Translations under genes and position numbers: made by a program
Source of the DNA: Thalassococcus profundi
GTDB taxonomy: Bacteria; Pseudomonadota; Alphaproteobacteria; Rhodobacterales; Rhodobacteraceae
DNA: 64,000 nt
Reading direction: 5' to 3'
Assembly (NCBI RefSeq): GCF_003344785.1
Contig: NZ_QPMK01000002.1
Coordinates: 186,001-250,000 of the forward strand
In this document: in pieces, positions 10,379 to 58,445 of the stretch
Numbering within the stretch: the first letter of the stretch is position 1
Layout: each line of letters begins with the position of its first letter
Notes under the pieces: model-generated
Told to the model about the DNA's origin: nothing
Databases searched by the model: none
Seen by the model: only the letters and a program-made list of their open reading frames with translations

Positions 10379-10444
10379 CTTCTTCGGTTTCAAAATACCT
10401 CAGAGAGCGCGAGAGACTGGTCTCTCGCAGCCCGCATCGCGGGC
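10379..10444 (-). repeat. Dispersed hairpin repeat, copy A (between def3 and fmt)
   Basis: Read on the minus strand, a 6-bp stem (10430-10435 with 10439-10444) is followed by a 9-bp stem GCGAGAGAC/GTCTCTCGC (10409-10417 with 10420-10428) and then the tail TATTTTGAAACCGAAGAAG. The last ~38 bases differ at one position from copy C at 58379-58445. The element begins at the base next to the def3 stop and ends 16 bases before the fmt start, so it fills the spacer of a presumed operon and abuts the fmt ribosome binding site. Confidence 0.8.
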
Positions 10445-13289: not shown

Positions 13290-13371
13290 CCGGGGGGCCA
13301 GCCCCCCGGACCGCGCCATAACCGGGGGGCCAGCCCCCCGGACCCCCCGGAGGTTTATTGGCAAGATGAAG
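13290..13371 (+). repeat. Dispersed hairpin repeat, copy D, with a duplicated hairpin
   Basis: The 20-mer CCGGGGGGCCAGCCCCCCGG, an 8-bp stem with a 4-base loop, occurs twice exactly (13290-13309 and 13322-13341) with 12 bases between. It is followed by GGAGG and the tail TTTATTGGCAAGATGAAG, shared with copies B and E. It lies between the convergent C-S lyase and TRIC genes and could stop transcription, though there is no T-run. Confidence 0.75.
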
Positions 13372-25066: not shown

Positions 25067-25135
25067 CTTCATCTTGCCGATAAACTCCAGAGAGCACGAG
25101 AGACAGCGTCTCTCGTACCCGCGCGCCGCGCGGGT
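25067..25135 (-). repeat. Dispersed hairpin repeat, copy B
   Basis: Read on the minus strand, a 9-bp stem with a tight loop (25117-25125 with 25127-25135) is followed by ACGAGAGAC/GTCTCTCGT (25096-25104 with 25108-25116) and a tail TTTATCGGCAAGATGAAG. The inner hairpin and flank (29 bases) are identical to copy C, but the tail is of the type in copies D and E, so this copy links the two variants. It is antisense to both flanking genes (acpS and the aminotransferase). Confidence 0.8.
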
Positions 25136-29594: not shown

Positions 29595-29650
29595 CGTTTG
29601 CAGCGCTGTGCCCGGGACCCGCATGTCGTGAAGGTCGAGATGAACCAAAG

Positions 29651-29681
29651 CCTCCGGCGGGAGTTTAGGGGCAAGATGAAG
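29651..29681 (+). repeat. Dispersed repeat, copy E (short form)
   Basis: A short 4-bp stem (CTCC/GGAG) leads into TTTAGGGGCAAGATGAAG, matching the tail of copies B and D. The long hairpins seen in the other copies are reduced here. It lies between the ftsK terminator and lolA. Confidence 0.6.
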
Positions 29682-58378: not shown

Positions 58379-58445
58379 CGCCCGCACGCGGGCGACGAGA
58401 GACGCTGTCTCTCGTGCTCTCTGAGGTATTTTGAAACCGAAGAAG
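58379..58445 (+). repeat. Dispersed hairpin repeat, copy C
   Basis: A 7-bp stem (58379-58385 with 58388-58394, 2-base loop) is followed by a 9-bp stem ACGAGAGAC/GTCTCTCGT (58395-58403 with 58407-58415), then GCTCTCTGAGG and TATTTTGAAACCGAAGAAG. It lies between mutT and argJ, on the strand opposite to both genes. Confidence 0.8.

Follow-up and report, generated by a model that had tools for sequence, protein, structure and literature searches.

A short dispersed hairpin repeat is present in five copies (A to E) in the window, by which we mean the whole 64-kb stretch of Thalassococcus profundi DNA that was analysed. All five copies described in the initial annotation were located by direct reading of the sequence, with the start of copy E corrected to 29650. 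Using our own gene calls, copy A was placed in sense orientation between def and fmt, copy B antisense upstream of an aminotransferase gene, copy C antisense between argJ and a NUDIX gene (mutT), copy D between convergent genes and copy E in sense between ftsK and a lolA-like gene; the orientations assigned in the initial annotation agreed with these calls. The nearest named relatives of the Fmt protein were Rhodobacteraceae such as Sulfitobacter, Salipiger and Ruegeria. An Rfam search of the window returned no matches above the gathering score.

Read 5' to 3' on the minus strand, copy A was composed of a variable 5' hairpin, GCCCGC-GAT-GCGGGC (10430..10444), a core hairpin, GCGAGAGAC-CA-GTCTCTCGC (10409..10428, RNA fold z -4.0), a third arm, GCTCTCT (10402..10408), and the tail TATTTTGAAACCGAAGAAG (10379..10397), designated dialect 2 of this genome. 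Copy B, also on the minus strand, had the same arrangement, with the variable hairpin ACCCGCGC-GGC-GCGCGGGT (25117..25135), the core ACGAGAGAC-GCT-GTCTCTCGT (25096..25116, z -3.5), the third arm GCTCTCT (25089..25095) and the dialect 1 tail GGAGTTTATCGGCAAGATGAAG (25067..25088). On the plus strand, copy C carried the variable hairpin GCCCGC-AC-GCGGGC (58380..58393), the core ACGAGAGAC-GCT-GTCTCTCGT (58395..58415, z -3.9), the third arm GCTCTCT (58416..58422) and the dialect 2 tail TATTTTGAAACCGAAGAAG (58427..58445). Copy D (plus strand) was made of two tandem G-run hairpins, each CCGGGGGGC-CA-GCCCCCCGG (extra hairpin 13290..13309, core 13322..13341), of which only the second had a third arm, CCCCCC (13343..13348), equal in length to the G run; the dialect 1 tail GGAGGTTTATTGGCAAGATGAAG (13349..13371) followed. 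Copy E (plus strand, 29650..29681) was a minimal form in which CTCC-GGCG-GGAG passed directly into the tail TTTAGGGGCAAGATGAAG with no triplex core. The initial description is corrected in that copy E lacked the hairpin core. Features were assigned from the sequence together with tail counts for the tails (for copy C, comparison of the orthologous gap), a family test for the third arm of A and a mirror scan for those of B, C and D, and stem statistics and folding for the variable hairpins.

The common tails, noted from the start, occurred in the window beyond chance, with three matches to GGNNTTTNNNGGCAAGATGAAG against 0.11 expected and two to GGTATTTTGAAACCGAAGAAG against 0.00 expected. The paired change at the foot of the 9-bp stem was also real, G:C in copy A and A:T in copies B and C.

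The genome (4,784,847 bases in 94 contigs) was searched by tail pattern with reversed controls, and 1.24 Mb of it, about a quarter, was mapped in detail. The tail type of copies B, D and E (GGCAAGATGAAG) occurred about 140 times (141 matches, reversed control 2; 153 against 7 with a looser pattern). The A and C type (AACCGRAGAAG) occurred about 25 times (range 21 to 30, reversed control 0 to 1), with 21 matches at up to three mismatches (reversed control 0) and 30 with a broader pattern. The genome-wide excess expected of a repeat family was present, far above the five copies of the window. In the mapped 1.24 Mb we found 67 copies. A covariance model, the kind of search proposed in the initial annotation, was built from 14 copies and gave 55 matches at E<0.01 in the same 1.24 Mb. 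A stretch of 0.8 Mb from two other genera yielded 9, and two loci on plasmids also matched. The E-values are rough, as the model was short-calibrated.

Across the family the order of parts was optional variable hairpin(s), core hairpin (5' arm X, loop, 3' arm X'), linker, third arm (X''), GGAG or GAGG, a T-rich stretch and the tag. X was purine and both X' and X'' were pyrimidine, and the linker before X'' was usually 3 nt and sometimes a further hairpin. Five types were distinguished: type I, ACGAGAGAC-loop-GTCTCTCGT-G-CTCTCT; type II, GCGAGGGGC-loop-GCCCCTCGC-G-CTCCCC; type III, (N)GGGGG-loop-CCCCC(N)-A-CCCCC; type IV, as type III with the linker replaced by a whole hairpin; and type V, CCTCCGGCGGGAG only. 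The second stems had been described as paired despite their different sequences, and this was borne out over 52 distinct type I copies, 60% of which had a perfect stem of at least 5 bp adjoining the core (21 different stems) as compared to 1.8% in shuffles. For the added hairpins of type IV the corresponding values were 65% and 3.7%. The added hairpins thus vary in sequence and remain paired, so the initial argument from compensatory change holds beyond the pair on which it was based.

Several variant forms were seen. Long type I forms with the 5' hairpin repeated and a CGATGCGCTTGCGCATCGGCGCAGCAG segment between were found on contig C13 near 93187 and near 124710. In three copies (C13 near 52102, C13 near 150872 and C1 near 222808) a second palindrome (GCGAGTTTTGCA..GCAAAACTTGC and variants) lay at the same point of the tail and resembles a nested insertion. 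Genome G041 had tails without the hairpin, indicating that head and tail can be separate. The tail was also considered as a conserved RNA hairpin and this was rejected, as TTTAT and ATGAA pair in dialect 1 and, by eye, not in other dialects.

The third arm was the mirror of X', not a copy of it, and was complementary to X in parallel orientation, as in GAGGGG/CTCCCC, GAGAGG/CTCTCC and GAGAGA/CTCTCT. For Watson-Crick pairing with X, X'' would have to be a direct copy of X'; a triple helix, whether Y·R:Y or R·R:Y in the other strand, calls for the mirror. The 1.24 Mb were scanned for every perfect hairpin with arms of 7 bp and an asymmetric core, and with overlapping windows of one copy counted repeatedly, the third arm was a mirror in 112 windows and a direct copy in 10, as compared to 6 and 1 in Markov-shuffled sequence. 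Most of the 10 direct cases were C-run shifts. Defining copies by their tails, 53 of 67 had a third arm, as a rule after a short linker. Asymmetric variants, taken without correction for shared ancestry, obeyed the parallel rule in other genera as well: GAGAGGGG/CTCTCCC in G035, and GGGGGAC/CCCCCTG and TTGGGGGT/AACCCCCA in G070. A few copies broke the rule, for example at one locus with CGAGGGGGC and CTCCCC, and in another TTGGGGGT copy of G070 that had G after it. The third arm as an antiparallel Watson-Crick partner of X was rejected; it fits G runs only and fails for GAGGGG, GAGAGG, GAGAGGGG and GGGGGAC. The family has three arms, a third arm in Hoogsteen geometry and short loops, as in intrastrand triplexes in the ITxF sense (three arms of 6-15 nt, third arm the mirror of the pairing arm, loops of 1-6 nt; PMC4666352). 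Judged from the sequence, the arrangement of the arms is that of an intrastrand triplex, and the core looks built to fold as a three-stranded hairpin, which we infer may form in the cell. The initial annotation had missed the parallel third arm and the tail dialects specific to each genome, and also that the window's two tail types are two among many in the family.

By our gene calls, 26 of the 67 mapped copies lay in convergent gaps and 39 in co-directional gaps (23 sense, 16 antisense), with one overlapping a gene, one at a contig end and none in a divergent gap. All but one were intergenic. From gap length, 11.3 convergent, 33.3 co-directional and 20.4 divergent copies were expected, and zero of 65 in divergent gaps has a binomial P of 2e-11. 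Orientation in co-directional gaps was near random (16 of 39, 41%, antisense) and not the sense orientation of intrinsic terminators. The elements read in G035 and G070 gave the same picture (7 convergent, 4 sense, 7 antisense, 1 divergent). Being intergenic, absent from divergent gaps and nearly random in orientation, the copies are REP-like and not ordinary terminators. High copy number, intergenic position, exclusion from divergent (promoter) gaps and occurrence in both orientations, the general features of REP-like dispersed repeats, were all seen here. Facing pairs, tail to tail and inverted, had a nearly fixed 16-20 bp between them in three genomes, an arrangement also known from BIMEs.

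Enrichment in convergent gaps, the position of copies only on the 3' sides of genes and the GC hairpin followed by GGAGTTTATT or TATTT would also fit a Rhodobacteraceae-specific module of transcription 3' ends, in which hairpin and T-rich stretch end or pause transcription, RNA polymerase or a termination factor recognises the tail, and transcripts running antisense are ended by the antisense copies. We consider this unlikely given the 41% antisense copies in co-directional gaps, the copies inside the murE-murF and def-fmt gene pairs, and the analogous E. coli intrastrand triplex motif TM_ECO, or PIT (Holder et al. 2015), which is without promoter or terminator activity (PMC4666352). In addition, at C1:308347 and C13:386284 the gap also held a canonical hairpin-TTTTT terminator, upstream of the element, and relatives without the element had kept this terminator. 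This argues against the element being a dedicated terminator and favours the view that it is tolerated 3' of genes. An element acting in RNA would also account for the location 3' of genes and the stable RNA folding of A, B and C (z -3.5 to -4.0); its third arm would form an RNA triple helix protecting mRNA 3' ends from exonucleases, and its tail would bind an RNA-binding protein. This seems very improbable, as antisense copies and copies downstream of terminators would not be in mRNA in the right sense, and C+·G:C triples in an unbroken run are unfavourable at neutral pH.

Presence and absence at orthologous loci were compared with the genus relatives G067, G198, G199 and G200, some of whose genomes are incomplete. 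Several sites were empty in relatives. At the site of copy C the argJ-mutT gap was 5-25 bp in G067, G198 and G199, with no element, as compared to about 130 bp here; murE and murF overlap by 4 bp in G200 and are separated here by an 82-bp insertion; further empty orthologous sites were C1:98480 and C13:386284. No clean target-site duplication was recovered. With respect to a MITE, empty sites were seen at argJ-mutT and murE-murF, with no clear duplication, and no parental transposase was found. Other sites were retained. At def-fmt (copy A), G198 and G067 had the same element with the same core and G199 had none, and the tails differed, TATTTTGAAACCGAAGAAG here, TATTTGTGGACAGATGAAG in G198 and TATTTAGGGCAGATGAAG in G067. 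The gap at C1:338404 was 78 bp in T. profundi, G198, G067 and G200, and a comparison of G198 with G200 gave 1 difference in 52 stem positions and 6 in 13 tail positions. Retention of elements across the genus at these two sites shows that many copies are old, and present-day mobility is hypothetical. At C1:191424, G198 and G200 shared a type IV copy opposite in orientation to the type I copy here, with different tails.

In 80 named relatives, the region upstream of fmt was mostly without the element; some had a hairpin with another tail and one had two facing tails. The def-fmt gap of Roseovarius aestuarii held a long palindrome made of two facing tails, which were separated by about a dozen bases and lacked a hairpin head. 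At five loci in G198 and G067, tandem GCGTATGGNNN units, another dispersed repeat, were seen in orthologous gaps that hold the hairpin element here.

The tail behaved as a genome-specific dialect, and at orthologous sites within the genus stems were kept and the tail was switched to the local dialect. With up to two mismatches, GNTATTTNNNNNCAGATGAAG occurred 145 times in G198, 50 in G067, 82 in G200 (in part a near-variant belonging to that genome), 16 in T. profundi and 9 in G199. For TATTTNNNNNCCGRAGAAR the counts were 62 in G200, 30 in T. profundi and 5-6 in the other genomes; counts of foreign dialects were near control level. Four loci in G199 and G198 had yet another dialect of the tail, GCGTATTTNGAAAGAGAAGAAG, in some cases with no hairpin head. 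That tags change in concert at many loci while the stems stay the same suggests a putative recogniser in trans or, alternatively, tag-specific conversion. About 160 small intergenic repeats with a genome-specific tag point to a DNA element, selfish or structural, with a putative recognition partner. Triplex- or hairpin-prone sequence duplicated and rearranged by replication errors, with no dedicated factor, would instead be a passive by-product, as in the proposal of genomic instability for TM_ECO. The geometry, the intergenic position and unbiased orientation as in TM_ECO, and the high turnover at orthologous gaps agree with this, but it leaves unexplained both the long tail tag common to about 150 copies per genome and the concerted tail change with stems kept, and we regard it as quite improbable.

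A REP-associated tyrosine transposase had been suggested as a helper; PF01797 (Y1/RAYT) was absent from this genome and 11 relatives, and the same search was positive in 5 of 14 control genomes. Translations of genes between outward-pointing copies revealed no obvious transposase. The consensus of the copies ends GGAG...GAAG and the stems begin ACGAG, GCGAG or GGGGG, and the GTAG or CGTC tag at the stem foot described for REPs (PMC3733652) was not found. Overall, the initial view of a REP/MITE-like family under structural selection, not simply terminators, stood with respect to copy number, orientation, absence from divergent gaps, insertion and absence at orthologous sites and the presence of separate terminators, and lacked support with respect to the REP-associated transposase.

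A 28-mer type II core was found in dozens of Rhodobacteraceae genera; among about 285 other alphaproteobacterial genomes, 1 had the form with a 3-nt loop. Plasmids of Leisingera, Sulfitobacter, Tritonibacter and Ruegeria carried the core. A plasmid of Rhodovastum (Acetobacteraceae) had the same three-arm core between mobC and parA, and three actinobacterial plasmids (Xylanimonas, Rathayibacter and Clavibacter) had it, without the tail, near parB genes; the loops in these plasmids were different. Plasmid copies possibly have a role in single-stranded DNA during plasmid transfer. A search for phage copies gave no convincing one.

Together these data suggest, with a probability of about one half, that the five copies belong to a non-autonomous REP-like dispersed DNA element of Rhodobacteraceae with a triplex head and a tail read by a putative factor. 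The anatomy, the mirror law, the distribution, the pattern of insertion and absence and the dialects are observed; for the triplex in the cell, the trans-acting factor and mobilisation we propose the following. With one strand laid open, as on the lagging strand, in a transcription bubble or during DNA transfer, X and X' would snap into a hairpin and X'' would fold back along it as a Hoogsteen third strand, and the complementary strand could form a pH-independent purine version (G·G:C and A·A:T). The folded head with its single-stranded tail would be the substrate of a genome-encoded factor that reads the tail, probably an endonuclease or transposase-like protein and not Y1/RAYT. Copies would spread into, and be tolerated in, transcribed 3' regions and be purged from promoters. 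As the specificity of the factor drifts, copies with the old tag would be converted or replaced, giving genome-specific dialects.

To our knowledge, triplex DNA in bacteria has so far been seen as possible on physical-chemical grounds, and there has been little to show that it matters to evolution. Here, in copies over several genera, the third strand varies in step with the hairpin in the orientation predicted for Hoogsteen pairing. We raise, tentatively and with more doubt than confidence, the possibility that the parallel covariation of X and X'' is evolutionary evidence for an intrastrand triplex that forms, and is under selection, in living bacteria. On this view the triplex would be the recognition head in a non-autonomous element of a new kind, and a putative factor, co-evolving with the tag, would read that tag. 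The genome-specific tags offer a further way in: they predict a trans-acting factor, with a specificity that can be read from the dialects.

A search of the open-access literature found no paper describing this element. DNA uptake sequences of Neisseriaceae and Pasteurellaceae are genome-specific short-tag dialects with inverted pairs at gene ends and thousands of copies. The present element shares the genome-specific short tag and the inverted pairs at gene ends, but it is only intergenic, has about 150 copies instead of thousands and has a structured head. With intrinsic terminators it shares a GC hairpin followed by a T-rich stretch; it differs in the GGAG spacer between arm and T stretch, the long conserved downstream tail, the antisense copies and the ordinary terminators alongside. 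Like REP, BIME and REPIN sequences it is short, palindromic and intergenic, lies near gene 3' ends and outside divergent gaps, forms inverted pairs and exceeds 100 copies; unlike them it has no GTAG/CGTC tag and no RAYT/Y1 in 12 genomes, but has a third arm and a long tail. TM_ECO forms a stable triplex in single-stranded DNA in vitro, with none detected in vivo by DMS footprint (PMC4666352), which weighs against the proposed triplex head. It has three consecutive arms, purine-pyrimidine triplex logic and a 3-nt second loop, is always intergenic without strand bias, forms inverted pairs and differs greatly in copy number among related strains, all as found here. The TM_ECO pattern, CCCTCNCCC-N3-6-GGGNGAGGG-N3-GGGNGAGGG (PMC4666352), did not fit the Rhodobacteraceae element, in which arm order and sequence differ: arms are Y-R-R in TM_ECO and R-Y-Y here (complement R-R-Y), and TM_ECO has no tail dialect and no added hairpins. 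TM_ECO is found in enterobacteria, and Rhodobacter-type genera are absent from the main text of PMC4666352. With a different arm order and sequence from TM_ECO, and with REP tags and RAYT missing, the element is a strict member of neither group; by analogy, it works like intrastrand triplex repeats in geometry and like REP/BIME in distribution.
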